From Acetobacter okinawensis (lineage in GTDB: Bacteria > Pseudomonadota > Alphaproteobacteria > Acetobacterales > Acetobacteraceae): a stretch of 52,415 nt of DNA. Shown here piece after piece: positions 36,231-52,415 of this stretch. The first letter of the stretch is position 1, and each line of letters begins with the position of its first letter. The notes beneath the pieces are model-generated. The model made no database searches. It saw only the letters and a program-made list of their open reading frames with translations, and was not told where the DNA came from. The stretch is taken from NCBI RefSeq assembly GCF_002153655.1, contig NZ_JOPJ01000015.1:1-52415 (forward strand). The letters run 5' to 3'. The translations under genes and the position numbers were made by a program.

Positions 36231-36255
36231 ACCCCCTCCATTATTTAAAGCCCAT

Positions 36256-36275
36256 CCCTGCTCAAAGCAGGGTTT
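36256..36275 (+). terminator. Intrinsic terminator of the DyP-encapsulin operon
   Basis: CCCTGCT-CAA-AGCAGGG followed by TTT forms a compact 7-bp stem with a three-base loop, 25 bases after the encapsulin stop. Confidence 0.8.
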
Positions 36276-36445
36276 GAGACGGTGGCGCCGGGTATGGGGC
36301 ATATCTCCCCAGCCCGGCATCGTTATCAGCAATGCTGACACGTGTCCCCCAGACCATCATGCGACCAGCGGTTTACGAAGCTGCGATGTTAGGCGATAAG
36401 GCTGTCTGTCGCCCATATCCCCTTCCCTGCGTTTTCCGAGGTCCC

Positions 36446-38068: not shown

Positions 38069-38241
38069 CGATATTTTTTGCATCCTCGTTGGTATAGGGA
38101 AAGGCTGCATGACAATCACAAACGCATAAAGTGCTGTGATGCGGCCCCCATGGGGCATGGAGCGCAAAAAGCCTTTGCTCCCAACCATGTTAAAGTCTTT
38201 TCGTGTTTGCGCTAGAAACGCGCCTGCGGCAGATTGGGTAT

Positions 38242-38721
38242 ATGATCCGTATATTTATCGATTCCGACGCCTGCCCTGTAAAAGACGAAGTATACCGTGT
38301 TGCAGCACGCTATAAACTGAAGGTTTTTGTCGTCTCCAACCGCATGATTGCCGTGCCCGACAGCCCTCTTGTTGAACGTATTGTTGTAGAACATGGGCCA
38401 GATGTTGCCGATGACTGGATTGCGGAACACGCATTGGAAAGAGACATTGTCATTACCTCAGATATTCCATTGGCGGCCCGTTGTGTTGAAAAAGCAGCGT
38501 ATGTTCTGGAACCAAAAGGAAGGTTGCTGGACGAAAGCACAATAGGCATGGCGCTGGCCATGCGAAACCTGATGACCGACCTGCGTTCTGCTGGCATGAT
38601 GACACCCGGCGGCAGCGGGTTTGGAAAAGCTGATCGGTCCCGCTTTCTATCAGAACTCGACACTCTCGCAGTCAAGGCACAAAAACCAAAGCCTCGTTTG
38701 TTCACTATGCCGCCCCAATAA
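38242..38721 (+). CDS. YaiI/YqxD family protein (UPF0178)
   Basis: This 159-residue cytoplasmic protein matches the widespread UPF0178 family. It starts MIRIFIDSDACPVKDEVYRVA and continues with VERIVVEHGPDVADDWIAEHALERDIVITSDIPLAARCVEKAA and a basic C terminus. The pattern of conserved Asp residues (IDSDACP, DVADDWI, TSDIPLA) resembles PIN/NYN-type nuclease folds, but no activity has been established. I start it at the conserved Met with a GGG-rich stretch upstream; the frame extends 13 codons further without support. It is a single gene after the ABC-F gene. Confidence 0.88.
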   Translation: MIRIFIDSDACPVKDEVYRVAARYKLKVFVVSNRMIAVPDSPLVERIVVEHGPDVADDWIAEHALERDIVITSDIPLAARCVEKAAYVLEPKGRLLDESTIGMALAMRNLMTDLRSAGMMTPGGSGFGKADRSRFLSELDTLAVKAQKPKPRLFTMPPQ

Positions 38722-38922
38722 ATGTCATCACTTTAAAAATTTCTTTATAATATTTTCGATATTGGAATATTTATATTTTCATATGCCCCAAAAATATCCA
38801 TCGCACGCAATGCTATAACAAAAGTAAACTTTCTCTTTCACATATTCCACCCTCCTTTGTGATCCTTCTATCTTGGTCATAGCAACATCCTGTCTGCAAC
38901 GATGTTTAAAAGGAGATATGCC

Positions 38923-40104
38923 ATGGTTGCCCCCCTGCCCGCACAGGCACAGCAAGAGCTTACCGAGCGTGGTTATTCCCGTCGGCAGATCGGTCGCATT
39001 TCTCTTATGCTGGGTGTCGGCACCGTTATGGCTGGCTTGCCATGGCACAAAAGCCGGGCCGATACCCTGTCTGTTGGTGGCACTTACCCGCCGGGTTCCA
39101 TTTTACTCAACAGTAACGAGTTTTGGACTGGTCCCTTCCCTTCCGCTCTGCCTGCAGGGCAAAAAGCATTGCTCAACGGCAACCGCTACCTGACTGGCCA
39201 GGAACGCCAGACTTTGGTTGAAACCGCGGCGGCCTATGACCATATTGCACCGGAATTGATAACACCCTGGCCCGGCTCCAGCGACCCGTTATGCAGAACA
39301 GTCATTTCTTTTTGCTCACCAACACAGGGGCTCGTGACCTGCGACCCCACTTATGAAACTGTTTGGGGAGTTGCGGAATGGCTGAAAATTCCCTTAACCA
39401 AAGTTCCGTTGCGACCGGATAATGGTTATAAAGCAGACGTAAGGGCTATGTTAAAGGCTAACCCACATGCGGGAATGTATTACATATGTAGTCCCAACAA
39501 TCCGACCGGCACAGTTACTCCGCTTGAAGATATTGCTTGGCTATCGCGCCATATACCCCCCAATGCCGTTCTGGTGGTGGATGAGGCGTATTTACATTTC
39601 AGCAATGCTCCGTCTGCGGTTTCTCTGCTTGGTTCGTGCCGCAATCTGATTGTTTTGCGCACATTTTCCAAATTATTTGCCATGGCGGGGCTTCGTCTAG
39701 GGTTCAGTATTGCTCACCCCAATCTGCATGACAGAATGATGCGTTATGATGGCATTTACCAGACAACCATGCTGTCCGTTCCGGCAGTTGCTATCGGCAC
39801 CGATAGTTTGAAGGACAGGGCAGAAATTGAAAAACGTCGTTTTGAAACAAAGCAGAACCGCAAGGTGATGCAGGCATGTTTAAGTCATTATGGTGTTAAT
39901 ACCATTCCCAGTGATGCCAACATGCTTATGGCTGACTGGCGTAAGGCACCAGAGCCAATTGTTGCAAAGCTTGCGCAAAACAATGTTATTATTGGGCGCA
40001 GTTGGGCTATATGGCCGACATGTTCCAGAATTACTGTTGGTTCGGCTCATGATGTGCAGGTTTTCTGCAAAGCCATGGAGAGCATTGGCCCATTACTTAA
40101 ATAA
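38923..40104 (+). CDS. Histidinol-phosphate aminotransferase-like protein with a Tat signal
   Basis: The 393-residue protein is a fold-type I PLP aminotransferase of the HisC kind. It has Asn193 (SPNNPTG), Asp220 and Tyr223 (VVDEAYLHF) and Lys250 (LRTFSKLFAMAGLRLGF) as the Schiff-base lysine. Ahead of it stands a twin-arginine-like signal: SRRQIGRI at residues 19-26, then a hydrophobic stretch to about residue 41. Tat export would fit a protein that folds around PLP before leaving the cytoplasm. A periplasmic aminotransferase is unusual, and its amino-group donor is unclear. The start follows AGGAG at seven bases. The gene has an AT-rich leader and a strong terminator, and its neighbours seem unrelated. 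Confidence 0.85.
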   Translation: MVAPLPAQAQQELTERGYSRRQIGRISLMLGVGTVMAGLPWHKSRADTLSVGGTYPPGSILLNSNEFWTGPFPSALPAGQKALLNGNRYLTGQERQTLVETAAAYDHIAPELITPWPGSSDPLCRTVISFCSPTQGLVTCDPTYETVWGVAEWLKIPLTKVPLRPDNGYKADVRAMLKANPHAGMYYICSPNNPTGTVTPLEDIAWLSRHIPPNAVLVVDEAYLHFSNAPSAVSLLGSCRNLIVLRTFSKLFAMAGLRLGFSIAHPNLHDRMMRYDGIYQTTMLSVPAVAIGTDSLKDRAEIEKRRFETKQNRKVMQACLSHYGVNTIPSDANMLMADWRKAPEPIVAKLAQNNVIIGRSWAIWPTCSRITVGSAHDVQVFCKAMESIGPLLK

Positions 40105-40112
40105 AAAAAACA

Positions 40113-40149
40113 CACCCAAAAAGGGAGACTATTCTCCCCTTTTTGGGTG
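40113..40149. terminator. Bidirectional terminator between convergent genes
   Basis: CACCCAAAAAGGGAGA pairs with TCTCCCCTTTTTGGGTG with one bulged base and a four-base loop. On the minus strand eight T residues follow closely, so it ends the amidohydrolase operon. On the plus strand the right arm itself is T-rich and serves the aminotransferase gene. Confidence 0.88.
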
Positions 40150-40216
40150 CTTACCAATTGCTCGGCATTAGAAAAACATTGCTGAGAACGCCAGTAATTT
40201 CTGGCTTAAGGGCGTT

Positions 40217-41461
40217 CTAGAATATTTTATCGGCCTTTAGCACTGCATGCAAAAGAACATTGCTACCTGCTGTTACATCTTCTGGCGTCGCACTTTCTGC
40301 CTCATTATGGCTAATGCCATGCAGACATGGCACAAAGATCATAGCGGTTGGCACTACCCGGGAGACATACACGGCGTCATGTCCGGCGCCAGAGACAATC
40401 TCGCGCATGGTATAACCGAAATCTTCCGCACTTGTTTTAACACTATCGATACATCTTGGATCAAAATGTACGGCGGGAGAATTCCATGTTGGTACAATGT
40501 CTACCTGTACATCATTGGCTTCAGCACAGTTTTGCATACGCTGTAAAAAATCTTCTTCCATAACCTGCAAAATCGATTCAGACGGATTGCGTAGGTCCAC
40601 GGTAAAACGCACTTCTCTTGGCACAACATTACTACTGGCTGGAAGGGCCGTAATAATGCCAATTGTGCTGAGTCCTTCCGGCGCATGGGCAAGTGCGACG
40701 GCATTCACCTGTTCAATCATACGGGCCGCAGCCAGCAATGCATCCTTGCGCATGGGCATGGGGGTTGTACCCGCATGGGCTGAACGCCCACGCACAATAA
40801 CCTCGTACCAGCGCATTCCCTGCACACCGGTTACAATGCCTATGGTGCGTTCTTCGGCTTCCAGCACTGGGCCTTGCTCAATATGCAGTTCAAAATACGC
40901 ACTTGCCGGGTGCTGGCCACATTGCTCCTGACCGACAAAACCACCTTGTTCAAGCTCATGCCGCAAGGTTACGCCGTTCGTATCGGCCCGGCTACCGGCG
41001 AACTCTTCCGTAAAAGCGCCACCAAAAACACCTGACGCCAGCATGGGTGGAGCAAACCGAGCACCTTCCTCGTTTGTCCAGTTTACGACTTCAAGCGGAT
41101 GATCCGTGCTTATGTCGGCTGCGTGCAACGCCCGAAGAACAGCAATACCACCCAAAACGCCCAAAATACCATCAAAACGGCCACCAGTTACCTGTGTGTC
41201 CAGGTGGCTTCCCATCATAATGGGGGGGAGGTCATTGCGCGTGCCAGCGCGGCGGGCAAACTGATTACCCATGGAATCATAAGTGACTGTGCAGCCCAAT
41301 GCCTTGCATGTCTGCTCAAACCAGGCACGGACCTGCCGATCTTCATGTGTCAGGGCAAGGCGGCAGATACCCCCTTTTTCTGTGCCACCAAAAGCTGCGG
41401 TTGTCACAAGATCCTGCCACAGGTCCTGTCCATTAACTGTCAGGTTGGCGTACTGGCTCAT
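40217..41461 (-). CDS. M20-family N-carbamoyl-amino acid / allantoate-type amidohydrolase
   Basis: The 414-residue Zn-dependent hydrolase belongs to the HyuC/AllC branch of peptidase family M20. These cleave ureido (carbamoyl) groups to an amine, CO2 and ammonia. Metal ligands are His86 and Asp97 (GSHLDTQVTGGRFDG), a Glu in NEEGARF, a His in HIEQGPVLE and a His in LHGISHNEAE. The dimerisation domain includes GRSAHAGTTPMPMRKDAL. I start at MSQYANLT, which has GGA at six bases; a GTG further up would overlap the dehydrogenase gene. It is the last gene of a three-gene operon behind a guanidino-group hydrolase, whose product would be exactly the kind of ureido compound this family cuts. Confidence 0.88.
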   Translation of the reverse strand: MSQYANLTVNGQDLWQDLVTTAAFGGTEKGGICRLALTHEDRQVRAWFEQTCKALGCTVTYDSMGNQFARRAGTRNDLPPIMMGSHLDTQVTGGRFDGILGVLGGIAVLRALHAADISTDHPLEVVNWTNEEGARFAPPMLASGVFGGAFTEEFAGSRADTNGVTLRHELEQGGFVGQEQCGQHPASAYFELHIEQGPVLEAEERTIGIVTGVQGMRWYEVIVRGRSAHAGTTPMPMRKDALLAAARMIEQVNAVALAHAPEGLSTIGIITALPASSNVVPREVRFTVDLRNPSESILQVMEEDFLQRMQNCAEANDVQVDIVPTWNSPAVHFDPRCIDSVKTSAEDFGYTMREIVSGAGHDAVYVSRVVPTAMIFVPCLHGISHNEAESATPEDVTAGSNVLLHAVLKADKIF

Positions 41462-41495
41462 ATCCTGTCCATTCCCTGTTCGAACTGTTATATCT

Positions 41496-42440
41496 TCAGT
41501 AGCCACGTGTTACATCACACAGCAAAGCAGGCTTTTCGCCCCGGACCAGACAGGCCACGACATCGGCCACATAGCGTGCCTGTACCTCACGCGATGCTTC
41601 AGAGGCTACATGCGGCGTTATGGTCAGCCTGGGGTGGTGCCATAGTGCGCTGTCTTCTGGCAGAGGTTCAGGGCTCACCACATCCAGCACCGCACCACAT
41701 AATGTACCATCATCCAATGCACTCAGCAGATCATTCTGCACCACGTGGCGTCCACGTCCGACGTTTACAAAACCAGCGCCTTTTGGCAGGTGGCTGAACA
41801 GAACATGGTTGATCAGCCCGTCTGTTGCGGGGGTTGCTGGCAGCAGATTAACCAGCACGTCCAACTCACCCAAAAAATCAGGCAGTGCGTCAACGCCGCT
41901 CCAAACCGTTATGCCGTCCAGCTCAGCGGGCGTTCTTTTCCAGCCGGATACGCAAAACCCGACATGGGCCAGAGCCTGAGCGACATATGCTCCAAGATGC
42001 CCAAGCCCCATAATGCCTACCCGGGTTGTATTGGAGGTGCGACTGCACACATTGTTGCGCCATTGGCCCTGCTGTTGTTGCAGTGCCCATGTTCGCGCAT
42101 CCCGCAACAGACTAATGACCGCCCACAGCACATAATCCGCCATAAGGCGGGCTGTCTGCTCTCCTCCCATCCGTACCAGCGGTACAGCGCGCGGGAAGTC
42201 TGCATGTGCCAGAAGGTGGTCCACGCCAGCCCCCGTGCACACAATGCCCTTCATGCGTGCAAGGCGCTCCATGTGGTCTGGTCGCGGGCTCCAGACCAGT
42301 GCATAATCATCCTCCCCGACGGTATAAGCCGGATCATACCATGAGCATACACTGAGCTGTGGAGCGACTGAAGCAAAGGCCAGACGCCAACTTTCAAACG
42401 CTTTTCTACCGTCCGCGCTGATAACAATACGTGCTGGCAT
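41496..42440 (-). CDS. D-2-hydroxyacid dehydrogenase (GhrA-like)
   Basis: The 314-residue NAD(P)H-dependent enzyme reduces 2-keto acids such as glyoxylate or hydroxypyruvate, or oxidises the matching hydroxy acids. The Rossmann domain holds TRVGIMGLGHLGAYVAQAL. The catalytic Arg lies in FVNVGRGRHVVQ, followed by an acidic residue in LDVVSPEPLP and the active-site His in ITPHVASE. Length and motifs are closest to glyoxylate/hydroxypyruvate reductase A. AAGGAG precedes the ATG. It is the middle gene of the operon, 26 bases after the guanidino hydrolase and 34 bases before the amidohydrolase, so it probably handles a keto acid released in that pathway. Confidence 0.87.
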   Translation of the reverse strand: MPARIVISADGRKAFESWRLAFASVAPQLSVCSWYDPAYTVGEDDYALVWSPRPDHMERLARMKGIVCTGAGVDHLLAHADFPRAVPLVRMGGEQTARLMADYVLWAVISLLRDARTWALQQQQGQWRNNVCSRTSNTTRVGIMGLGHLGAYVAQALAHVGFCVSGWKRTPAELDGITVWSGVDALPDFLGELDVLVNLLPATPATDGLINHVLFSHLPKGAGFVNVGRGRHVVQNDLLSALDDGTLCGAVLDVVSPEPLPEDSALWHHPRLTITPHVASEASREVQARYVADVVACLVRGEKPALLCDVTRGY

Positions 42441-42466
42441 CCACCTTGCTCCTTATACGTTCCCTC

Positions 42467-43339
42467 TTACGCAGTCTGCAAAGATTGACGACGCAGAGGC
42501 ATGGTCATGCAATGAATACTACCGCCACCGCGGGAGAACTGGTTAAGCTCGGGGTCAAGCACATTGAGCCCTTCAGCCCGTAGCATCGCGTTAATCCGTG
42601 TGGAATGGCGCGGACTGACCACACGGTCCCGCCCCAGCGCCAGCACGTTACAGCCCATGTCACGCATGGCTTCGCGGTAGGTTACGGGCAGAATGCGAAT
42701 ACCCTGCTCCCGGAACCACTCCAGATCAGCCTCATCCAGCACGTCCACCGCAGCAATGGCCAGATTTTCTGCCACCATGCAAAAAATAACATCCAGATGC
42801 AAAAAATGCTCAGGAAAATGGATCATCCGGCAGGTCCAGCCGGCCTCTTCAAACCAACTGATAAACTCGGCCGCGCCTTTTGTATCCGTGCGTCCCCCGC
42901 TCACCCCAACAGCCAGCAGGCCGGGGCGGATAATATGAATATCCCCCCCTTCTATACGCCCTGCGGTGCAGGTGCGCCAGATTTCATCCGGAGCGTAAAA
43001 AGTGCGGATTTCCTTTTCTTCCCCCACCCGCTCCGCGCGCGACAGGCTGGTCACAACCGTGCCAAAAGGCGTTGTCTGTGAGCTGTCACGGGTATAAACC
43101 TCATAAGGCATATCCTTGTGCGGCGTAAGAAAATGGCAGGAAACATCAGCCCCCTTCAAGGTTGATACCAGTTCGTCAAACTGGCTGTGCAGGGTTGTCC
43201 TGTCTATGCTGCCACCATGCGCCATTGTCTGGATAGCGATGTCATTGCTTGGTATCCATTCGTAATAATCTGGCGGGCAAAGAAGGACATCTGTCAGCAC
43301 ACCGGTTTCACTATCAATAAACCATCTGTTCGCTGCCAT
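42467..43339 (-). CDS. Guanidino-group hydrolase/deiminase of the DDAH-amidinotransferase superfamily
   Basis: A 290-residue member of the guanidine-modifying superfamily (arginine deiminase, dimethylarginase, amidinotransferase). The catalytic set is visible: Asp85 in YTRDSS, Glu130/Asp133 in RIEGGDIHI, His181 in FLHLD and the nucleophile Cys277 in GGGSIHCMTMPLRR. Such enzymes attack the guanidino carbon and usually release ammonia or an alkylamine to leave a ureido group. I start at MAANRWFID, which has GAGGA ten bases upstream; an in-frame TTG 13 codons earlier is possible. It is first in its operon and faces the LysR gene. The exact substrate is unknown: dimethylarginine, agmatine-like or another guanidino acid. 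Confidence 0.85.
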   Translation of the reverse strand: MAANRWFIDSETGVLTDVLLCPPDYYEWIPSNDIAIQTMAHGGSIDRTTLHSQFDELVSTLKGADVSCHFLTPHKDMPYEVYTRDSSQTTPFGTVVTSLSRAERVGEEKEIRTFYAPDEIWRTCTAGRIEGGDIHIIRPGLLAVGVSGGRTDTKGAAEFISWFEEAGWTCRMIHFPEHFLHLDVIFCMVAENLAIAAVDVLDEADLEWFREQGIRILPVTYREAMRDMGCNVLALGRDRVVSPRHSTRINAMLRAEGLNVLDPELNQFSRGGGSIHCMTMPLRRQSLQTA

Positions 43340-43647
43340 GTCTTGAAAATCCTCAAGGTATCTAAGTTGCTCCTGCAAGCTATCCGAGGCTTATTACGGC
43401 CCCAATACGAACAGACATGAGTTTACTTTAGTTTTTTCGCAATTATGGGAAAATAACGCAGAAAACCGTCATTCTGCCCCTTTTATGCACTGCCATGTTT
43501 ATATGTGCCGAGCGGTTCGCCCTTCACATCATATATTTTCCACGCCATAATTATTTTGATAAAAGAACAATAACGGTTTGCCCGTAAAAACAGGAGGTTG
43601 GGCAACCCGCCCTCCTTGACGCCCCACTCTGCAGGAGCATTCAGACC
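43340..43647. promoter_or_regulatory. 308-base divergent control region of the guanidino island
   Basis: This stretch lies between the guanidino hydrolase gene and the LysR gene and should carry both promoters. Its centre (about 43420-43590) is AT-rich. Near the LysR start a GC-rich element, AGGAGG (43592-43597) with CCTCCT (43611-43616), can form a hairpin, and the nested GGTTG-GG-CAACC is an alternative pairing. It might be an operator or an RNA element in the LysR leader. Confidence 0.5.
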
Positions 43648-44601
43648 ATGACGGGAAGCAGCCATAAAACACCTCGCCCAAGAAAAAGAGTACGTGGTTT
43701 TCAGGGGCATGTTTCAGAGATTGACCTCCGGCTGCTCCGCGTCTTTCATACAGTGGCCGAACAGGGGGGCTTCAGTGCTGCGGAAATTACGCTGGGCAAA
43801 AGCAAATCCTCCATCAGTCTCGATATCTCGGCACTGGAAACCCGCCTTGGCCTGACGCTCTGCCTGCGCGGACGTAGTGGCTTCGCCCTGACTGATGAAG
43901 GGCGGGAGGTGCTGGAAGCAACCCGCTCGCTTTTTATCAATCTTGAACACTTCCGCCAGCAGATCAATCAGGCGAGTGGCGTGCTGAGCGGCACATTTAC
44001 CCTGTATGTGCCCGACAATATTCAAACCCATGGTGAAACGGCGTTGGTCAAAGCCATTCACACCTTTACGCAAAGCCATCCGGGCGTGTTCATGCACCTG
44101 CATTCCGCCTCAACCAAGGAGGTGGAGGTAGCTGTGATGAATGGTCAGGCTACGGCGGGTATTGCGCTTTACGCACAGGGGCGGGCGCCGCAGGGCTGTC
44201 GCCCCCTTGTGGCCGAAGCCTCCTATCTCTTCTGCGGTGCGCGGCATCCCCTCTTCCATGTGCCGGAAGAAGACATCACTCTGGACGTTCTGGCCAGCCA
44301 GAGCATGGTGAGTGTTGGAGAAGTCGCGACATCCGATATGTGGGAGAGCATACGCCACCATTTTACCTACCGCGCCAAAGCCGACAAACTGGACGCCCGC
44401 GCGCTGCTTATTCTGTCTGGCAGTTACATTGGGTTTCTGCCCGAAGTTTTTGCAGCGCCCCTTGTGGCCCAAGGGCTGCTGCGCCGGATTGCGTTCAATA
44501 ACCTGCGCCTGATTACCTGCTGTCACCTACTGACACGCACCTCGCCCGAAACCAGCCTGATGGTCGAAACGTTCCGTTCCCTTCTGGAAGCTTCCTATTG
44601 A
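43648..44601 (+). CDS. LysR-family regulator of the guanidino island
   Basis: The 317-residue protein has a basic N-terminal tail (about 1-20). Then come the LysR helix-turn-helix (LRLLRVFHTVAEQGGFSAAEITLGKSKSSISLDISALETRLGLTLC) and the effector domain. Residues such as LRGRSGFALTDEGREVL are standard for the family. CAGGAG precedes the ATG. Its stop codon overlaps the start of the ABC transporter gene as TGATG, so regulator and transporter are translated together. It is divergent from the guanidino hydrolase operon, so it probably controls both directions in response to the imported compound or a product of it (inference). Confidence 0.9.
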   Translation: MTGSSHKTPRPRKRVRGFQGHVSEIDLRLLRVFHTVAEQGGFSAAEITLGKSKSSISLDISALETRLGLTLCLRGRSGFALTDEGREVLEATRSLFINLEHFRQQINQASGVLSGTFTLYVPDNIQTHGETALVKAIHTFTQSHPGVFMHLHSASTKEVEVAVMNGQATAGIALYAQGRAPQGCRPLVAEASYLFCGARHPLFHVPEEDITLDVLASQSMVSVGEVATSDMWESIRHHFTYRAKADKLDARALLILSGSYIGFLPEVFAAPLVAQGLLRRIAFNNLRLITCCHLLTRTSPETSLMVETFRSLLEASY

Positions 44602-46178
44602 TGATCAGCTCTTTCTCCCTCTCACCGCTCATGCGGTGTTTCCGTTCTGTTGCAGCCCTTGCTGGCATCCTCGTAGCAACTGCTGGGCTGCACGGACTGG
44701 CTCTGGCCGAACAAGCTCCCTCGTTTGTGCAAAATGGCGTGCTGACCATTTGTACAAACCCAACACTCCCCCCGATGACCTTTGTCAAAGGCCAAGATGT
44801 CAGCCACCCGGAAGGGTTTGATATTGACGTAGCACAAGCTCTGGCCAACCGCTGGCGGGCGCGGCTGTCCGTTATTACCATGGACTTTACCGGCCTGTTT
44901 CCCAGCCTTTCCGCTCAGCGGTGCGGGTTGGTCATGAGTGGTATTATCCGCACACCCGCGCGGGAAAAAAGCTTTGATGCGGTCACTTATCAGGATACCG
45001 CACTGGTTGTTGTCGGCCGTAAGGGTACCCCCTCCCTGACCAGCATGGATGAGCTTGCGGGCAAAAGTATCGCCGTTGAATCCGGCACCAGCTATATTAC
45101 CAGACTGGGACTTATTAACGATACTCTGGTGGCGGCAGGCAAACCGCCCATGATTATTCAGCAATACCCGACTGAAGAACAGGTGGTGCAGCAGGTCCTG
45201 ATTGGCCGTGTGTTTGCTTTTGTCAGTCAGGACGTAGAACTCTTTTTTCGCATGCGCCAACTGGGGGACAAGCTTCATGTCCTGATCACCCCGGATATTC
45301 CTGATTACCACCATTTTGCCATCTACCTGCGGCCAAATGCCGCGGACCAGACGCAGCTTCAGTCCGCGATCAGTGCGTTGGAAACGGATGGCACGCTACC
45401 AGCACTGCGCTCCAAATGGTCCGTGACAGACCAGTCCACAAAAAATGGCGCGGCAAACGCTACTTCCAGTTCCATGTTTGACTGGAATGCCTTTTTTTCC
45501 GCTCTTACCTCCACCGCTTTTCTGCACGGTGCGCTTATCACACTGAGCGTGGCCCTGATTTCACATATCATCGCCATCACCATCTCGGTGCCGATTGCCA
45601 TTGTACTGAACAGCCCGCAGAAATCTGTGCTTAAAATTGCGCTGGAAGGCTATGTCTCCCTTTTTCGTGCGGCACCAACCCTGCTTCAGCTCCTTTTTAT
45701 ATGGAACGCTGTGCCGCAGTTTTTCCCCATTTTCCGGGAGCAGTGGTTTACGCCGTTTTTGGCCACCATTCTTGCATTGTCCGTGAATGAATCAGCCTAT
45801 CAGGTAGAAATCAACCGCGCCGCACTCAGTGCTGTGGACCCAGGTCAGGAGCTTGGCGCCAGTGCGCTCGGGTTGAGCAGGCGCGATATTTACTGGCGTG
45901 TTATTTTCCCGCAGGCTTTCCGCATTGCTCTCCCCCCCACCATTAACGAATTTATCAATCTGTTAAAAATTACCTCCCTTGCGTCTGTTATCTCGCTCCA
46001 GGAACTTCTGGCTGTGACACAGATACAGGTTGCACGCACTTTTGCATTCACTGAGTATTATGCTGCGGCCCTGGTTTATTATCTGGTCATGGTATTTTTC
46101 TTCCTTTTCCTGCAAAAACGGGTGGAACGCCGTTTTGCCTGGTCTGACCGTAAAAAGGTTGTTTCCAATGCAGCATGA
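44601..46178 (+). CDS. Amino-acid ABC transporter, fused binding protein and permease
   Basis: The 525-residue protein joins two parts. First comes a signal peptide or anchor (to about residue 37) and a family 3 periplasmic binding domain (about 44-275, with NGVLTICTNPTLPPMTF, GFDIDVAQALANRW and GKSIAVESGTSY). Next is a His/Glu/Gln-type permease domain with about five membrane helices (about 300-510) and the coupling loop ELGASALGLSRRDIYWRVIFPQAFRIALPP. It imports a polar amino acid or opine-like compound. The ATG overlaps the LysR stop by one base. Given its partners, a guanidino or ureido amino acid is the likely substrate (inference). Confidence 0.93.
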   Translation: MISSFSLSPLMRCFRSVAALAGILVATAGLHGLALAEQAPSFVQNGVLTICTNPTLPPMTFVKGQDVSHPEGFDIDVAQALANRWRARLSVITMDFTGLFPSLSAQRCGLVMSGIIRTPAREKSFDAVTYQDTALVVVGRKGTPSLTSMDELAGKSIAVESGTSYITRLGLINDTLVAAGKPPMIIQQYPTEEQVVQQVLIGRVFAFVSQDVELFFRMRQLGDKLHVLITPDIPDYHHFAIYLRPNAADQTQLQSAISALETDGTLPALRSKWSVTDQSTKNGAANATSSSMFDWNAFFSALTSTAFLHGALITLSVALISHIIAITISVPIAIVLNSPQKSVLKIALEGYVSLFRAAPTLLQLLFIWNAVPQFFPIFREQWFTPFLATILALSVNESAYQVEINRAALSAVDPGQELGASALGLSRRDIYWRVIFPQAFRIALPPTINEFINLLKITSLASVISLQELLAVTQIQVARTFAFTEYYAAALVYYLVMVFFFLFLQKRVERRFAWSDRKKVVSNAA

Positions 46179-46920
46179 AGCAACAGACCTCCCCATGATT
46201 TCCGTGCGGGGTATGAGCAAACTGTTTGGTGAGTTCGTCGCTCTCGACCGTGTGGATTTTGATGTCAGTCGTGGTGAAAAAATTGTGGTGCTTGGGCCAT
46301 CCGGGTCAGGAAAATCAACCCTGATCCGGACCCTCAACCGTATTGAGCCACACGACATTGGCACGTTGAACATCAATGGCAAGTTGATCAATGAGAAAAC
46401 CGACCCTATCCAGCTCCGCTGTATGGTGGGTATGGTCTTTCAGAACTACAACCTGTTCCCGCACCTAAGTGTGCTGGAAAACTGTATTCTTGCCCCCATG
46501 CGGGTCAAGCATATGAGCCGGGCCGAAGCAACGGCTCTTGCGCGCCGCTATCTGGAGCAGGTGGGTATTCCTGACCAGGCAGACAAATATCCTATTCAGC
46601 TTTCAGGCGGGCAACAGCAACGCGTGGCCATAGCCCGTGCGCTGTGCATGCAGCCACAGGTCATGCTGTTTGACGAGCCTACAGCAGCCCTGGACCCAGA
46701 GGCTATTGTTGGCGTGGTCAGTATTATGGATGAACTGGCAGAACAGGGCATTACAACTGTTTGCGTAACGCATGAAATGGCTTTTAGCCGCCGTATTGCA
46801 GACCGTATTATTTTTATGGATCAGGGGAAAATAGTTGAGATTACCCCCCCTGAAACTTTTTTCACCACCCCCCAAACTGACCGGGCCCAGAATTTTCTTA
46901 ACCAAATGCTCCGATATTGA
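46168..46920 (+). CDS. Amino-acid ABC transporter ATPase
   Basis: The 250-residue ATPase powers the permease encoded just upstream. It has Walker A GPSGSGKST, the Q-loop in VGMVFQNYNLFPHL, the signature LSGGQQQRVAIARAL, Walker B VMLFDEPTAALDPE and the switch His in VCVTHEMAF. It is a close fit to GlnQ/HisP-like proteins of the polar amino acid group. The ATG, with AAAAGG upstream, lies inside the last codons of the permease gene (11-base overlap), so the two are coupled. A shorter start at MISVRGMSK is possible. Confidence 0.94.
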   Translation: MQHEATDLPMISVRGMSKLFGEFVALDRVDFDVSRGEKIVVLGPSGSGKSTLIRTLNRIEPHDIGTLNINGKLINEKTDPIQLRCMVGMVFQNYNLFPHLSVLENCILAPMRVKHMSRAEATALARRYLEQVGIPDQADKYPIQLSGGQQQRVAIARALCMQPQVMLFDEPTAALDPEAIVGVVSIMDELAEQGITTVCVTHEMAFSRRIADRIIFMDQGKIVEITPPETFFTTPQTDRAQNFLNQMLRY

Positions 46921-46973
46921 ACGTCTGTGCCCCCCGCATGCCAATCAACAAAAGTATGATTTAATTATTTTCA

Positions 46974-46997
46974 AACGAATGTAAGGGATATTTCGTT
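46974..46997. promoter_or_regulatory. Inverted repeat ahead of the TonB-dependent receptor gene
   Basis: AACGAA (46974-46979) and TTCGTT (46992-46997) flank a 12-base spacer in the AT-rich stretch 80-100 bases before the receptor ATG. Its place suggests an operator of a separate promoter for the receptor and the downstream enzymes, but the arms are short. Confidence 0.35.
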
Positions 46998-47075
46998 ATG
47001 AAATGAAAACGAAAAGACCGGTCATCTTTGCGCCCCAGGAGCCGGTTCCAACGGGAATGAAACAGGAAAACGGGC

Positions 47076-49361
47076 ATGAAATCATATTTTTTACGTCGGT
47101 CCTTCCGCCTTCTGGCTTCAGTGCCAAGATATGTAAGCCTGCCAGCTTTGCCCTGCCTGCTTCTGGCATCGACCTCAACACTGGCAACCGCTGCAACACC
47201 TGTTGCCAGTAGCCAGCCTGTTGCAAAAAGCCACGTCAGCGCAAACGGCAAGCATGCATCCGCCCCTTCCAGACGTAAAAACACCGCACCACGCAATGGT
47301 GCCACCGAAGAAGTTGAGGTCAGCCAGACCCACACGCACCGCTACCTGTCCCAGCCTGCCACAGTGAACGTCATCAGCGGGCAGGAACTGCGTGCTCTTC
47401 ATCTGGAGAGCCCCAAGGATATTGCTTCCTTCACCCCCGGTGTAACCGCTTCCAATGCTGTGTCCGGTTCAGCTCCCATTTTTTCAATCCGCGGCGTCGG
47501 GCTGGATGACTATGTCGGTACCAACATGGGGGGGATTGGCATTTATCTGGATGGGTTGCTTGCTCCTTTCCCGGTTTTCTACACCGGGCAAATGCTGGAT
47601 ATTGAGAGTGTCTCCACAGAAAAAGGCCCACAGGGCTTTGATATGGGACGCAGCACAACGGGTGGCAGCATCAATATCCAGTCCGTAAAGCCTTCCGATA
47701 AGTTTGGGGGTTATGCAGAGTGGGGTTACAGCAGCTACAATACCAACCATGGCCGCTTTGCCATTAACACACCTATTACAAATAAAATCTTCAACCGCTT
47801 CGCCTTCAACTATGTCAAAGGCGATGGCTGGCAAAAAGACATCAGTACCGGAGATCGCTACGGCTCGCAGGACCTGCTTGCACTGCGCAACCTGACCAAA
47901 TTTGTGGTGGATGATACATCCTCCGTGCTGCTTAACATCCACTACACACGCGATAAAGGCCGCTCGACCTCCCCGCAGGATATTTCACAGCCCAGCGATG
48001 GGGGAGCGGGCCTTCATCCCAGCGCCAACTCCGTTAACGTGGGGAATTCGCCCCCGCACCGGAACGAAAACGGTGGTGGCGTGTCCGTCAATTACACCAA
48101 AGCATTTGACTTTGGTACTTTTTCGTCCACGACCGGGATCGATTTTTACCGTCGCAACGATCTGGATAACTACGACGGCGTTGATACGCAGGTCGCTGAC
48201 TATCGCTGGAATGACACGGCCATTGCGCAGTCTCATGACATGCACCTGCGTATGAACTTGGCAAAAATCTTTCATCTGACCGTAGGGGTTTACGAATCTT
48301 ACGACAAGATTGATGGGGAATACACCAGCTATCGTGGGGCTACCAAAGACCCGCATGCAAACTTTACAAATCATTTTTCCCAGCAGAACGTCTCCACGGG
48401 GCTGTATATCAATACAGTTACCAATATTACCAAAAAGCTCGACTTCCTTGCCGGTGGTCGTCTGTCTTATGATGAGCGAGGCTTTAATGGTGGCACCAGA
48501 AGCTACCCTATTGGGTCTGCCAGCAGCTCCCAGCTTAGCTACCTGAACACAACCCATAGCTACCATCGCTTTACCGGGCGCGTTGGGCTGCGTTACGAAA
48601 TTGTGCCAAACACCTATGCTTACGGTACAATCTCCAATGGCTACAAAGCAGGTTCTTACTTTGTCGCTCCTGTACTGCTGCCTCAGGCGCTTGACTACGT
48701 TAAACCGGAAAACCTGATCGCTTACGAAATCGGCATTAAATCCTCCCTGCTCCATAATAAAGTGCAGCTTGAAGGCTCTTTGTTCGATTATGAATACCAT
48801 AACCGGCAGACTTTGTTCTTTGAAGTGTTTGACCCGGTGAACAGCCTGAACTCACTCACTTTGGGCACCATTCCGCGCGCACGCACACGAGGGGGCGAAA
48901 TTTCCGGCACGTTCCATGATGTTATCCCCAATCTTGATCTGCACGGCTCCTTTGCATATCTGGATGCGCAATCCAAAAGCACCGTGCTTGATGATGGGGG
49001 CAACGCCCTTGTTACCAAGAACTCTTCTCTCCCGTTCTCTCCGCGTTTCTCATGGAGTGCTGTGGCGCGTTACGGCATAGACATCAGCCGTTACCGCACC
49101 ACTTTGCAGGCCAGCTTTACATGGAAGGATAACATGTGGGCCGCTCTGGGTGACCCCAACGCACAGAACGGGAAAATCAGCTCCCTTGGCCTGCGTATGG
49201 AATTCGGCCCCAAAACCGGCAAGTGGAATGCAGCAGTTTATGTAGACAACCTGCAGAACAATGCCCGTAGCAACTATTCCTTTACCGGGAACGATGGCAA
49301 CCGCGTACAGTACATCCAGACACCCCGCTGGATTGGTTGTGACTTGCACTACAACTTCTGA
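47076..49361 (+). CDS. TonB-dependent outer-membrane receptor
   Basis: The 761-residue receptor draws a bound ligand across the outer membrane using TonB energy. It has a signal peptide (about 1-40, ending TAA), a linker rich in Ser, Ala and Lys, and a TonB-box-like EEVEVSQT (about 78-85). The plug domain is TVNVISGQELRALHLESPKDIASFTPGV...FSIRGVGLDDY, and the 22-strand barrel ends in CDLHYNF with a terminal Phe. No sigma/anti-sigma signalling domain precedes the plug. AGGA lies before the ATG. It sits 155 bases after the ABC ATPase and 28 bases before the isomerase, so its ligand is probably the island's substrate or a chelated form of it, rather than a plain siderophore. Confidence 0.92.
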   Translation: MKSYFLRRSFRLLASVPRYVSLPALPCLLLASTSTLATAATPVASSQPVAKSHVSANGKHASAPSRRKNTAPRNGATEEVEVSQTHTHRYLSQPATVNVISGQELRALHLESPKDIASFTPGVTASNAVSGSAPIFSIRGVGLDDYVGTNMGGIGIYLDGLLAPFPVFYTGQMLDIESVSTEKGPQGFDMGRSTTGGSINIQSVKPSDKFGGYAEWGYSSYNTNHGRFAINTPITNKIFNRFAFNYVKGDGWQKDISTGDRYGSQDLLALRNLTKFVVDDTSSVLLNIHYTRDKGRSTSPQDISQPSDGGAGLHPSANSVNVGNSPPHRNENGGGVSVNYTKAFDFGTFSSTTGIDFYRRNDLDNYDGVDTQVADYRWNDTAIAQSHDMHLRMNLAKIFHLTVGVYESYDKIDGEYTSYRGATKDPHANFTNHFSQQNVSTGLYINTVTNITKKLDFLAGGRLSYDERGFNGGTRSYPIGSASSSQLSYLNTTHSYHRFTGRVGLRYEIVPNTYAYGTISNGYKAGSYFVAPVLLPQALDYVKPENLIAYEIGIKSSLLHNKVQLEGSLFDYEYHNRQTLFFEVFDPVNSLNSLTLGTIPRARTRGGEISGTFHDVIPNLDLHGSFAYLDAQSKSTVLDDGGNALVTKNSSLPFSPRFSWSAVARYGIDISRYRTTLQASFTWKDNMWAALGDPNAQNGKISSLGLRMEFGPKTGKWNAAVYVDNLQNNARSNYSFTGNDGNRVQYIQTPRWIGCDLHYNF

Positions 49362-49389
49362 ACGACTGGCCTGTATCAGGAGCGCGTAA

Positions 49390-50244
49390 ATGCAGCTTGA
49401 ACTTTTCCGGACTTTATGGGGGGATAACCGCCGGTGGGATTACCCACTGGCGGAAGCCCGCGCGGCAGGTTTTGAAGGGCTGGAAGCCCGTATTCCATCC
49501 ACAACGGCTCAGGCCCGCGCGTGCGCCACCATTTTACACGACGCGGGAGCGCCCTATATCGCCATCGCCATGACCGGCGGAGGCGTTATTCCCGCCCAGA
49601 GTGCCACAGTGCAGGACCACTTGAATGACCTGCGGGAGGCGATAGACCGGGCACTACTCATGGAGCCCCGGTTTGTCACCATTCTTGGCGGAAATGATCG
49701 CTGGCCTGCCAGCCAGCAGGTTGAGTTTATGGCTCAGGCGCAGACTATCTGCCATTCAGCCGGCCTGCTCTGCTGCTTTGAAACACATCGCTCCCGCATT
49801 CTGGCAACACCATGGGTGACACTGGACGTTATTGCGCAGCTACCAGACGTGCTGTTTACAGCCGACATAAGTCACTGGGTTGTCTGCTGTGAACGCCTGC
49901 TGAATGACCCGGCGGATGACCTGTCCACTTTTGTGGAGCGTGTGCACCATATTCAGGCACGCGTTGGTTATGATCAGGGGCCACAGGCCCCTCACCCCGG
50001 CGCACCGGAATATGCACCAGCACTGCACTTTCACCAGAACATCTGGCAGCAGATCTGGTTAAGCCAGCATGCGCGTGGATACACCACCACCACCATGACG
50101 CCTGAATGTGGACCAGATGGTTACCTGCACACCCTGCCATTTACCAACATGCCGGTAGCCGACCTATGGTCGCTCAATATCTGGACAGGCCAGACCGAGC
50201 GCGAGCACTTTCAACATGTGCTGTCAAACACGGACAGCAAATAA
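49390..50244 (+). CDS. Sugar-phosphate isomerase/epimerase-type TIM-barrel protein
   Basis: The 284-residue protein has the xylose-isomerase-like TIM barrel found in hexulose/inosose isomerases and AP endonuclease 2 relatives. Likely metal ligands are Glu in CCFETHRS, Asp and His in FTADISHWV, and Glu in TMTPECGPD. No export signal is present. AGGAGCG precedes the ATG. It is part of the enzyme string between the receptor and the 2-oxoglutarate oxygenase, with a gap of 12 bases to the next gene. An isomerase, epimerase or dehydratase step on the carbon skeleton is possible; the substrate cannot be read from sequence. Confidence 0.82.
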   Translation: MQLELFRTLWGDNRRWDYPLAEARAAGFEGLEARIPSTTAQARACATILHDAGAPYIAIAMTGGGVIPAQSATVQDHLNDLREAIDRALLMEPRFVTILGGNDRWPASQQVEFMAQAQTICHSAGLLCCFETHRSRILATPWVTLDVIAQLPDVLFTADISHWVVCCERLLNDPADDLSTFVERVHHIQARVGYDQGPQAPHPGAPEYAPALHFHQNIWQQIWLSQHARGYTTTTMTPECGPDGYLHTLPFTNMPVADLWSLNIWTGQTEREHFQHVLSNTDSK

Positions 50245-50256
50245 GGAACTGGGTTG

Positions 50257-51303
50257 ATGTCTGTTTCCAAAACCACTGACACCTTCACCCGCATTCCGGT
50301 CATTGATATCAGTGATCTGTACAGCGACAACATTGTACAGCGTCAGGCTGTTGCTGAAAAACTGGGAGAGGCTGCACGCAATGTCGGCTTCCTTTATATT
50401 TCCGGTCATCAGGTCGGGGCGGACCTGATCGAAGGTGTCCGTAAGGCTGCGCGGGGTTTTTTTGCCCAGCCTTTTGACAGGAAAATGGAGTATTACATCG
50501 GCACATCCGCCACCCACAAAGGCTTTGTCCCTGAAGGGGAAGAAGTATATTCCGCCGGTCGCCCCGACCATAAGGAAGCCTTTGATATCGGCTACGAAGT
50601 GCCAGCCAATCATCCTCTGGTGCAAGCGGGCACGCCTTTGCTGGGGCCAAACAACTGGCCGGATATTCCCGGTTTTCGGGCTGAAGCGGAAGCCTATTAC
50701 CGTGCAGTGTTCGATCTGGGACGCACCCTTTTTCGTGGGTTTGCACTGGCTCTGGGGCTGGACGAAAAGTATTTTGATACTGTTGCCAACTTCCCGCCCT
50801 CCAAACTCCGCATGATTCACTATCCGTATGATGCCGACGTGCAGGATGCACCCGGAATTGGCGCCCATACCGATTACGAGTGCTTTACAATCCTTCTGGC
50901 AGACAAACCGGGACTAGAGGTGATGAACGGCCATGGGGAGTGGATTGATGCCCCCCCGATCCCCGGTGCTTTTGTCGTGAATATCGGCGATATGCTCGAA
51001 GTCATGACCGCAGGGGAATTTGTGGCAACGGCACACAGGGTCCGCAAGGTGGCGGAGGAACGCTACTCTTTCCCACTTTTTTATGCCTGCGATTACCATA
51101 CCCAGATCCGCCCCCTGCCCGCCTTTGCAAAAGGTGATGAGGCATCATACGAGACCATTACCATTGGGGAGCATATGTGGTCACAAGCCTTGCAAACGTA
51201 CCAGTACCTTGTGCGCAAGGTTGAAAAAGGCGACCTCAAACTCCCTCAAGGTGCGCGCAAAACGGCTACCTTCGGCCATTTTAAGCGCGTTACCTCTGCC
51301 TGA
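50257..51303 (+). CDS. 2-oxoglutarate/Fe(II)-dependent oxygenase, isopenicillin-N-synthase family
   Basis: A 348-residue non-haem iron oxygenase. The facial triad is His204 and Asp206 in GAHTDYECF plus His260 in ATAHRV. Arg269 and Ser271 in ERYSFPLF would hold 2-oxoglutarate. The N-terminal domain begins [10 protein letters not shown] and includes [10 protein letters not shown], as in the plant-type DIOX_N fold. Related enzymes hydroxylate amino acids or split guanidino amino acids such as arginine and homoarginine, which fits the island. The start is the ATG with AAGGA nine bases upstream. The next gene follows 33 bases later with its own ribosome site. Confidence 0.9.
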
Positions 51304-51336
51304 AATAGTTATTTTATCTCCAAGGACCATAAAGCC

Positions 51337-52074
51337 ATGACCACTCAACAGACCGAACAGGAACTGCGCGAAGACCTTGCCGCAGCGTACCGGCTTATTG
51401 CCCATTTTGGGATGACCGATATGGTGTACACCCATCTGTCCCTGCGGTTACCCGGTGGTGGACACCGCTATCTGGTAAACCCCTACGGCCTTCTGTTTGA
51501 AGAAATCACGGCAAGTTCTCTGGTTATTGTAGATGCTGACGGTATTCCGCAGCAAGAAACAAGCTGGGCCATTAACCCGGCCGGCTTTGTTATTCACTCC
51601 GCCATCCACGCCAACAGGCCGGATGCCGCCTGTGTCATCCACACCCACACTGTGCCCGGCATGGTGGTTGCGGCACAGGACAAGGGTATTCTCCCCCTGA
51701 ACCAGATCAATATCGAATTTTATGGTGCTGTGGCCTTCCATGCCTATGAAGGGATTGCAGCGGATGACAACCTGAGTGAACGTGAACGTCTTGTGCGTGA
51801 TCTTGGCAACCACAACGCCATTATTTTGCAAAACCATGGCTTGCTGACAGTTGGCAGCACCGTAGCACAGGCTTTTTACCGCATATATTACATGGAGCAG
51901 GCCTGCAAAATCCAGATTGCGGCCCAGGCCACCGGGGTGCCATTACATGTTCCCTCGGAAGAAAAACTCCTGCGTACAAAAAATCAGTTTGTAACAGACC
52001 CCGATCAGGGGCAGATGATCTGGAAAGCCCTGCGCCGCAAACTCGACCGGGAGCAGCCAGACTATAAAAACTAA
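51337..52074 (+). CDS. Class II aldolase/adducin family protein
   Basis: The 245-residue protein matches zinc-dependent class II aldolases of the fuculose-phosphate type. Zn ligands would be His102 and His104 (CVIHTHTVPG) and His167 (AIILQNHGLLTVG). An N-terminal MTDMVYTHLSLRLPG and the active-site Glu in FEEITASSL fit too. Family members split carbon-carbon bonds next to a hydroxyl group or decarboxylate hydroxy acids. In this operon it could cleave the hydroxylated product of the preceding oxygenase (inference). AAGGA precedes the ATG, and a hairpin terminator follows the stop. Confidence 0.88.
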   Translation: MTTQQTEQELREDLAAAYRLIAHFGMTDMVYTHLSLRLPGGGHRYLVNPYGLLFEEITASSLVIVDADGIPQQETSWAINPAGFVIHSAIHANRPDAACVIHTHTVPGMVVAAQDKGILPLNQINIEFYGAVAFHAYEGIAADDNLSERERLVRDLGNHNAIILQNHGLLTVGSTVAQAFYRIYYMEQACKIQIAAQATGVPLHVPSEEKLLRTKNQFVTDPDQGQMIWKALRRKLDREQPDYKN

Positions 52075-52102
52075 AAGCCTGATCCTCCAATGTATTACCT
52101 GA

Positions 52103-52129
52103 GGGGAAGAGCTGCTCTTCCCCTTATTT
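52103..52129 (+). terminator. Terminator after the class II aldolase gene
   Basis: GGGGAAGAG (52103-52111) and CTCTTCCCC (52115-52123) form a 9-bp stem with a tight loop, followed by TTATTTG. It should end the island's enzyme operon, so the next gene probably has its own promoter. Confidence 0.85.
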
Positions 52130-52213
52130 GTTGTCGGCTTTTGCTTGCCCCGATCGTGCTCATAGACACGTGTATGTATTACTCCGCCGCCCAGACAGAC
52201 AGGACCGCGCGTG

Positions 52214-52415
52214 ATGAAACACACATCAGGACCATACAGCTTGAAACGTAGAGACCTGTTTGCGGCTTCTCTGGCAGCCGGAATGATGGGAGTTGCACGC
52301 CGGAGCTGGAGTGCGGCGCCAAACGGGGCAGCCCCTCAGGCCGCCGTAGCCCTTGGCCGCACGGCCCTGCACGGCACCATCCCCCGGCTGGTGCCCATTC
52401 GCGCCCATGCCGACC
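52214..52415 (+). CDS. Tat-signal protein, partial (runs off the window)
   Basis: The frame is open from an ATG with AGGA nine bases upstream to the end of the window, giving the first 67 residues only. It starts with a clear twin-arginine signal (LKRRDLFAASLAAGMMG at about residues 10-26). The region after it, ending LVPIRAHAD, resembles the beginning of exported FAD-dependent oxidoreductases of the D-amino-acid oxidase kind, but too little is present to be sure. It follows the aldolase terminator and could belong to the same island. Confidence 0.65.
   Translation, partial: MKHTSGPYSLKRRDLFAASLAAGMMGVARRSWSAAPNGAAPQAAVALGRTALHGTIPRLVPIRAHAD

Follow-up and report, generated by a model that had tools for sequence, protein, structure and literature searches.

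The window, that is, the whole stretch of DNA analysed here, is an entire contig (C53) of 52,415 bases from the genome of Acetobacter okinawensis (2.72 Mb in 147 contigs). Between positions 40217 and 52074 it carries ten genes in two divergent sets with a LysR regulator between them, which we read as an island for the catabolism of a carboxylic acid with a guanidino group, most probably one of the 4-guanidinobutyrate type and possibly N-substituted, by means of an oxygenase/TIM-barrel pair, deimination and decarbamoylation; the probability of this reading is estimated at about 0.5. What speaks most strongly for a guanidino group in this compound is that two non-homologous guanidino hydrolases keep the same gene company. 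Guanidinoacetate-type substrates, which would supply glyoxylate to the GhrA-like dehydrogenase, are possible, and 4-guanidinobutyrate is preferred to them because a guanidinobutyrase-like gene and a 4-aminobutyrate transaminase gene occur at related loci. Guanidino acids of the N-carboxymethyl-arginine type and N-methylated ones were weighed as further candidates. Labels such as L006 or L091 denote loci in this analysis, and G516 denotes a genome.

Gene company of two non-homologous predicted guanidino hydrolases

Outside Acetobacteraceae, 17 loci with homologues of the window's xylose-isomerase-like TIM barrel (49390–50244, plus strand) were collected: L091 and L092 from plasmid records, picked via matches to the oxygenase, L105–L112 from 398 genomes of the phylum (nine with a match at E ≤ 1e-30, the window's own included), and L131–L137 from 369 genomes of one class (eight with a match at E ≤ 1e-40, one of them already among the loci). 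Genes were called by codon scoring, and the calls are approximate in GC-rich loci (the TIM gene of L109 was missed and recovered by tblastn). The TIM proteins of L105–L108 are 57–58% identical to that of the window and Pseudomonas proteins about 60%, so that L105–L108 may come from Pseudomonas-like bacteria; further plasmid matches came from a second Klebsiella record, Spirosoma and Runella.

In the Klebsiella locus L092 and in L109 and L135, a ureohydrolase gene lies 14–126 bases before the TIM gene on the same strand. Judged by similarity, the L135 protein is closest to guanidinobutyrase among ureohydrolases of known structure (522 bits against guanidinobutyrase 3nio, compared with 300 for guanidinopropionase 3nip and 234 for 1gq6), and those of L092 and L109 are 81% identical to it. 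Guanidinobutyrase GbuA has an arginase fold and releases urea. The order in these three loci is ureohydrolase, TIM barrel, oxygenase, binding protein, ABC genes, aldolase, GhrA homologue. A largely similar block is found in acetic acid bacteria, where the pentein hydrolase and sometimes the M20 enzyme replace the ureohydrolase; in place of the GbuA homologue that adjoins the TIM–oxygenase pair in the three loci, the window has the pentein hydrolase and M20. The likeness extends to L105–L108, which share the order TIM–oxygenase–binding protein–ABC with L092, L109 and L135; the aldolase then follows in L092, L105, L109 and L135, and a GhrA homologue is present in L092, L109 and L135 (downstream of the aldolase in L092 and L135). 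Conversely, these blocks have neither hydrolase nor M20, no TonB receptor was recognised in them, the binding protein is separate, and permease and ATPase apparently form one reading frame.

An oxygenase gene is found near the TIM gene in 16 of the 17 loci; if only the 15 loci selected through TIM are counted, the figure is 14. The oxygenases of L091 and L092 are no independent evidence, because both loci were picked from oxygenase matches. A 2-oxoglutarate (2OG) oxygenase homologous to that of the window is present in nine loci (L091, L092, L105–L110 and L135), 15–50 bases away in eight and 1.1 kb away in L110. A further seven (L111, L112, L132, L133, L134, L136 and L137) carry a PF00487 'fatty acid desaturase'-type oxygenase, within 63 bases of the TIM gene in four and at 0.8 kb in L136; in L132 and L133 the two genes are about 1.7–1.8 kb apart and on opposite strands. 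The assignment comes from a Pfam match in L111, L132 and L137 and from tblastn homology (43–72%) in the others. The PF00487-type protein of L137 has no similarity to the window oxygenase, and L131, a 4 kb contig, has neither type.

Scanning of all 17 loci at Rfam gathering scores revealed guanidine-I (Gd-I) and/or guanidine-II (Gd-II) aptamers in five (L091, L132, L133, L134 and L137; four of the 15 picked by TIM alone), with a Gd-II aptamer directly upstream of the PF00487-type gene in L133, L134 and L137. TIM homologues lie inside or beside urea/guanidine-carboxylase sets (carboxylase, UAAP1, UAAP2 and allophanate hydrolase) in L091, L132 and L137, and binding proteins 57–63% identical to that of L091 are encoded in six loci (L131–L134, L136 and L137). 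At the genome level, Gd-II was found in 14 of 15 TIM-bearing genomes vs 2 of 14 controls, and Gd-I in 9 of 15 vs 1 of 14, the controls being few and distant. The guanidino theme of the original prediction held up on both sides of the island: the hydrolase has deiminase residues (see below), and the TIM/oxygenase half, traced separately in other bacteria, stands in some cases beside guanidine riboswitches, carboxylase operons or a guanidinobutyrase-like ureohydrolase.

Two side observations concern these loci. The guanidine regulon of L137 (L137:4156–16674) combines creatininase-family and type III glutamine-synthetase genes with the PF00487 oxygenase, the TIM barrel and the urea/guanidine carboxylase set, carries two Gd-I and one Gd-II aptamers, and may process creatinine-derived guanidines. 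In addition, pairs of a PF00487-type gene and a TIM gene repeatedly have genes for an EamA transporter and a protein of metallo-beta-lactamase fold as neighbours (L132:10161–11857, L136:8502–11060). The metallo-beta-lactamase of L136 is 59% identical to the one beside the L091 guanidine genes; the latter gave no match at E ≤ 1e-5 to the metallo-beta-lactamase that neighbours the hydrolase in loci of Rhizobiales type.

The oxygenase and its TIM-barrel partner

The window's Fe(II)/2OG oxygenase (50254–51303, plus strand), of the DIOX_N/isopenicillin-N-synthase type, belongs to its superfamily by profile score (PF14226, 99 vs 27 bits; PF03171, 81 vs 23 bits) and by the presence of Fe/2OG ligand motifs, which we take to comprise H205, D207, H261, R270 and S272, all invariant across eight sequences. 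Its best PDB match is 9ovh (224 bits), named by its depositors as an ethylene/succinate-forming enzyme. The adjacent TIM barrel, whose fold is that of sugar epimerases, is predicted to act on the oxygenase product.

Passages of PMC12508155 describe a related division of labour in Vreelandella boliviensis, where methylguanidine is demethylated by a 2OG oxygenase and a lyase (MgdH/MgdL). The window resembles this system in that a 2OG oxygenase is paired with another small enzyme in the context of guanidine metabolism. It differs in the partner, a xylose-isomerase-like TIM barrel, in the ABC type, aldolase, GhrA, TonB receptor and hydrolase, and in having no riboswitch in the part searched (36000–52415). 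Relatives of the window oxygenase are found in guanidine settings in L091 and L093. The homologues in L093 (43%) and L094 (47%) precede a hypothetical protein whose D-x-R motif, read by eye, resembles D49/R51 of MgdL and which may be MgdL-like; the window TIM barrel has no detectable similarity to the L093 protein so taken, in a comparison confined to that protein.

According to the original prediction, the oxygenase hydroxylates the carbon skeleton after removal of the nitrogen. Attack on the carbon at the guanidino nitrogen now appears likelier, because guanidine operons contain relatives of both the oxygenase and its TIM partner. We further propose, tentatively and with less confidence than we attach to the reading of the island as a whole, that the TIM barrel might be the first member of an undescribed lyase class that breaks hydroxylated N-alkylguanidines, recruited by two unrelated oxygenases (of the 2OG and PF00487 types) in guanidine-riboswitch regulons, and in acetic acid bacteria part of a new guanidino-acid pathway via oxidation, deimination and decarbamoylation. 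In the open-access literature searched (subscription journals were mostly outside the search) nothing was found on a TIM barrel in guanidine metabolism, on guanidinoacetate hydroxylase/glyoxylate in bacteria, or on a combination of at least three of the four components class II aldolase, isopenicillin N synthase, amino acid ABC transporter and hydroxypyruvate reductase. Likewise, 'xylose isomerase' and 'TIM barrel' are absent from the main text of PMC12508155, PMC11410670 and PMC12186494, and in the passages checked of the guanidine-riboswitch literature the word 'desaturase' denotes NapI.

The pentein hydrolase and the M20 enzyme

The hydrolase gene (42467–43339, minus strand) encodes a pentein-fold protein that scores well over the gathering thresholds (PF02274/PF19420, 89 vs 22.8 and 66.6 vs 23 bits). 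Its open reading frame (ORF) reaches back to a TTG at 43378, and the most likely start is the ATG at 43339, because the resulting length of 290 residues is also that of most among the nearest homologues listed. Identity is 95–96% with the proteins of A. syzygii, A. fabarum, A. lambici and A. lovaniensis, and 98% over the best segment with that of A. okinawensis. For a wider comparison, contigs from one genome per species were scanned with an alignment of 19 hydrolases, and the best 80 of 354 confirmed stretches were kept. H194, D98, E143 and D196 are present in all 80 loci and C290 in 79, the remaining one being unaligned; with the profile match, this Cys-His-Asp/Glu catalytic set places the protein in the pentein guanidino-modifying superfamily.

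The fold and catalytic residues are shared with arginine deiminase, dimethylarginine dimethylaminohydrolase (DDAH) and ArgZ. However, the window protein is only about 290 residues long and misses the equivalog cut-offs of these enzymes: arginine deiminase (arcA) TIGR01078, 64.4 vs 489.1 bits; DDAH NF045658, 55.4 vs 450, NF045659, 56 vs 300, and NF045660, 43.3 vs 340 bits; ArgZ/AgrE NF052232, 52.8 vs 450 bits. Furthermore, Tyr92 occupies the position of arginine deiminase Asn160 and DDAH Asp60 in 80/80 loci, and Asp98 stands, again in 80/80, where the ArgZ/AgrE dihydrolases have Asn71; the roles of these and the other compared pentein residues are as we assume them to be. A fold neighbour is NnhA, the 2-nitroimidazole nitrohydrolase, and the portions consulted of the CATCH-N paper (PMC7268258) mention ureohydrolases and ArcA and no enzyme that could be equated with the window hydrolase. 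The hydrolase is predicted to be a deiminase that turns a guanidino acid into a ureido acid and ammonia.

The gene at 40217–41506 (minus strand; PF01546) encodes an M20 enzyme of the hydantoinase/carbamoylase family, HyuC/AllC-like, with metal-site motifs. It exceeds the cut-offs of TIGR01879 (436 vs 204 bits) and NF006769 (589 vs 452 bits) and misses the allantoate deiminase AllC equivalog TIGR03176 (258 vs 598 bits). Ureido formation followed by carbamoyl removal, as originally envisaged, is plausible from these assignments. Motifs that we presume to form the active site were found in all four of hydrolase, M20, oxygenase and TIM barrel.

Conservation and separability of the two sets

By record titles, 48 of the 80 hydrolase loci belong to Acetobacteraceae (L011–L057 and L065). 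Gene presence was determined by tblastn, and the counts are lower bounds, several loci stopping at contig ends. The hydrolase is present in 48, the binding-protein/permease fusion and the ATPase in 39 each, the aldolase in 34, LysR in 32, the TIM barrel and the oxygenase in 31 each, the TonB receptor in 29, GhrA in 25 and M20 in 17; five loci have the hydrolase alone and four the hydrolase with GhrA only. The complete set of ten is present in 12 of the 48 loci. A separate sample of 249 Acetobacteraceae genomes included 68 with the hydrolase (E ≤ 1e-80) and 11 with the oxygenase (E ≤ 1e-110). Each of these 11 oxygenase-bearing genomes also has the hydrolase, ten of them on the same contig within about 9 kb and G516 on different contigs (Fisher p = 3e-7, kinship uncorrected); the linkage of the two genes exceeds chance.

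Conversely, the sets do come apart, an outcome that would refute the original prediction and that was observed to some extent. Klebsiella (L092) and other genomes outside the family have the TIM/oxygenase/ABC/aldolase set and lack the hydrolase there. The hydrolase (E ≤ 1e-20) was found in none of eight TIM-bearing genomes outside Acetobacteraceae, an absence that is credible because the same query matches in 68 of the 249 family genomes. In Komagataeibacter xylinus and Gluconacetobacter relatives, in turn, the hydrolase has either no other island gene or just GhrA for company. Outside the family it keeps different partners: several loci of the Rhizobiales and Rhodobacter types combine it with putrescine-type ABC genes, a LysR gene and a metallo-beta-lactamase, and M20 accompanies it in five Sphingomonadales loci (L069, L077, L078, L081 and L083) and in L080. 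On Rhizobium/Sinorhizobium plasmids (L008:10402–16194, L010:6627–14212) a homologue of 45–46% lies inside an ABC operon that also holds an amidase, a class III aminotransferase and a BKACE-type 3-keto-acid cleavage enzyme. The guanidino reading was retained nonetheless.

Some family loci show local variation. In two Gluconacetobacter loci (L045:7399–8289 and L046:6866–7777) an arginase-family gene, 46–47% identical to the L135 ureohydrolase, lies about 2 kb from the hydrolase, and the TIM–oxygenase block is missing there. In Acetobacter nitrogenifigens an amidohydrolase gene (PF07969, scanned in L036; L036:917–2782) is located between the TIM and oxygenase genes, as is a gene of the same cluster in two of its relatives (loci L036, L037 and L038). 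On a Komagataeibacter saccharivorans plasmid the gene table shows only a 93-base M20 piece (L006:18354–18446) beside the hydrolase and GhrA, as if M20 were on its way to loss.

Remaining genes of the island

All genes named in the original prediction are present on the strands it gave, and profile searches put their ORFs in the expected families. Downstream of the hydrolase, the GhrA-like D-2-hydroxyacid dehydrogenase (41496–42440, minus strand; PF02826) scores 212 bits with NF012013, under the cut-off of 403. The LysR gene (43648–44601, plus strand; PF00126, PF03466) separates the two sets; in an alignment of ten hydrolase–LysR gaps, made in search of a shared LysR box, conserved stretches were seen among the closest Acetobacter and no box was established.

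The other genes are on the plus strand. The fused solute-binding protein/permease (44598–46178; PF00497 and PF00528) is of the polar amino-acid ABC type (TIGR01726, 56.6 vs a cut-off of 42.2). The polar amino-acid-type ABC ATPase (46168–46920; PF00005), whose best NCBIfam models are GlnQ and ArtP, both under their cut-offs, most likely starts near 46168 to give 250 residues, as called in L011–L015; other relatives have 236–266. These are followed by a TonB-dependent outer-membrane receptor (47076–49361; PF00593 and PF07715) and, beyond the TIM and oxygenase genes, by a class II aldolase/adducin-type enzyme (51337–52074; PF00596; NF005451, 336 vs a cut-off of 207 bits). The last gene, with a Tat signal (52214–52415), is cut by the contig end after its first 202 bases; it probably encodes a DAO-family FAD oxidoreductase, as does its A. 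fabarum counterpart (L012, PF01266), which was matched to the window by eye.

A Tat-signal aminotransferase gene (38902–40104, plus strand; NF006580, 409 bits, under the cut-off of 444) is convergent with M20. It may belong to the set, because homologues (51–52%) sit between the hydrolase and the aldolase in three Novacetimonas loci (L042, L047 and L051). In A. oeni (L027) a 4-aminobutyrate transaminase follows GhrA and exceeds the equivalog cut-off (TIGR00700, 542 vs 507 bits).

Proposed route and competing explanations

In the proposed route, judged from the protein families, the substrate would be imported via the TonB receptor, the binding-protein/permease fusion and the ATPase. Going by its relatives and neighbours, the 2OG oxygenase would hydroxylate the carbon bound to the guanidino nitrogen, and the TIM barrel would break the resulting hemiaminal, as MgdH/MgdL do with methylguanidine. 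The pentein hydrolase, for which family and residues were established above, would deiminate the guanidino acid, yielding a ureido acid and ammonia, and M20 would take off the carbamoyl group to leave an omega-amino acid. The oxygenase pair may either trim the guanidino nitrogen before the hydrolase acts or constitute a parallel route that frees guanidine. GhrA, the aldolase and the aminotransferase may handle the carbon pieces, which is the weakest part of the scheme, and LysR, from its position, is the likely switch for both sides. The substrate and the order of the steps are inferred; of the pathway originally drawn, the guanidino compound is supported, and the fixed ten-gene pathway with its step order is not.

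The guanidine context of the genome itself bears on which branch would be used. It has one arginase-family gene. No Gd-I or Gd-II aptamer was found in the window from 36000 to 52415, and Gd-I is also absent genome-wide, the Gd-II search having been confined to that stretch; the window's Rfam matches, listed to an E value of 5, all lay under gathering scores and were discarded as chance. The genome furthermore lacks urease and, in contrast to the guanidine carboxylase operons under Gd-I/Gd-II riboswitches, a full-length urea/guanidine carboxylase. Consequently, the deiminase–carbamoylase route is favoured there over free guanidine as a nitrogen source.

Several observations weigh against the proposed catabolism of a guanidino acid. 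A cell with a genome so equipped might be unable to use free guanidine or urea any further. M20 is missing at 31 of the 48 family loci and GhrA at 23, some of which stop at contig ends, and the aldolase and GhrA are without a settled role. The 4-aminobutyrate transaminase occurs at just one of the 48 loci, and the class III aminotransferase near the hydrolase homologue in Sinorhizobium L010 resembles glutamate-1-semialdehyde aminomutase (240 bits, below cut-off), not the 4-aminobutyrate type. The guanidinobutyrase-like gene is found at only three of the 17 TIM loci, seven of which (L105–L108 and L110–L112) have no local guanidine marker, and in L091 the TIM–oxygenase pair lies between two Gd-I aptamers, not directly behind one. 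Finally, a sugar-isomerase-type TIM barrel may do something else entirely.

Among the competing explanations, the strongest is oxidative release of guanidine, in which the oxygenase would hydroxylate C4 of 4-guanidinobutyrate (or an equivalent carbon) and the TIM barrel would split the product into guanidine and an aldehyde acid, reduced by GhrA or another reductase, with hydrolase and M20 forming a separate second route. The TIM homologues in carboxylase and riboswitch operons and the frequency of Gd-II and Gd-I in TIM-bearing genomes speak for it, and 2OG enzymes that free guanidine exist, according to passages of PMC12186494. We nevertheless consider it unlikely, as the genome has no urease, full-length carboxylase or Gd-I riboswitch, the Gd-II search having covered positions 36000–52415. 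Slightly less probable still is that two unrelated sets share LysR by positional accident, for instance a sugar-acid set (TIM isomerase, aldolase and GhrA) beside a hydrolase set: the sets are separable and the TIM fold is that of sugar epimerases, but the hydrolase accompanies the oxygenase in 11 of 11 genomes, nearby in ten, and the TIM set has guanidine links of its own.

Ureide or hydantoin scavenging, with M20 as a true allantoate or N-carbamoyl-amino-acid hydrolase and the hydrolase acting on a ureide-pathway intermediate, could draw on the scores of M20 with the allantoate amidohydrolase-named subfamily models NF006769 and NF006771, which it passes, and on an NCS1-type permease gene after the hydrolase at one locus (L089). 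As no allantoinase or ureidoglycolate enzyme is among the families of the ten genes, M20 is so often absent from the family loci and the AllC equivalog is missed, this explanation is regarded as very doubtful. The same applies, if anything more strongly, to ordinary arginine catabolism with the hydrolase as arginine deiminase, which would have to accommodate an arcA score of 64 vs 489 bits, the lack of arcB and arcC among the ten genes and a Tyr at the Asn160 position throughout the 80 loci.

Implications

Where guanidine and guanidino acids come from in nature, and by which routes, is presented as an open question of the guanidine-riboswitch field in passages of PMC12186494. Catabolism of a guanidino acid by the island described here would tie a protein family labelled 'sugar phosphate isomerase' to guanidine chemistry and offer a second kind of partner for guanidine oxygenases. 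In acetic acid bacteria, a predicted deiminase and carbamoylase route would stand in place of guanidinobutyrase. The oxygenase and the TIM barrel labelled as a sugar isomerase look like an undescribed pair, kept by some bacteria beside guanidine-sensing RNA switches.

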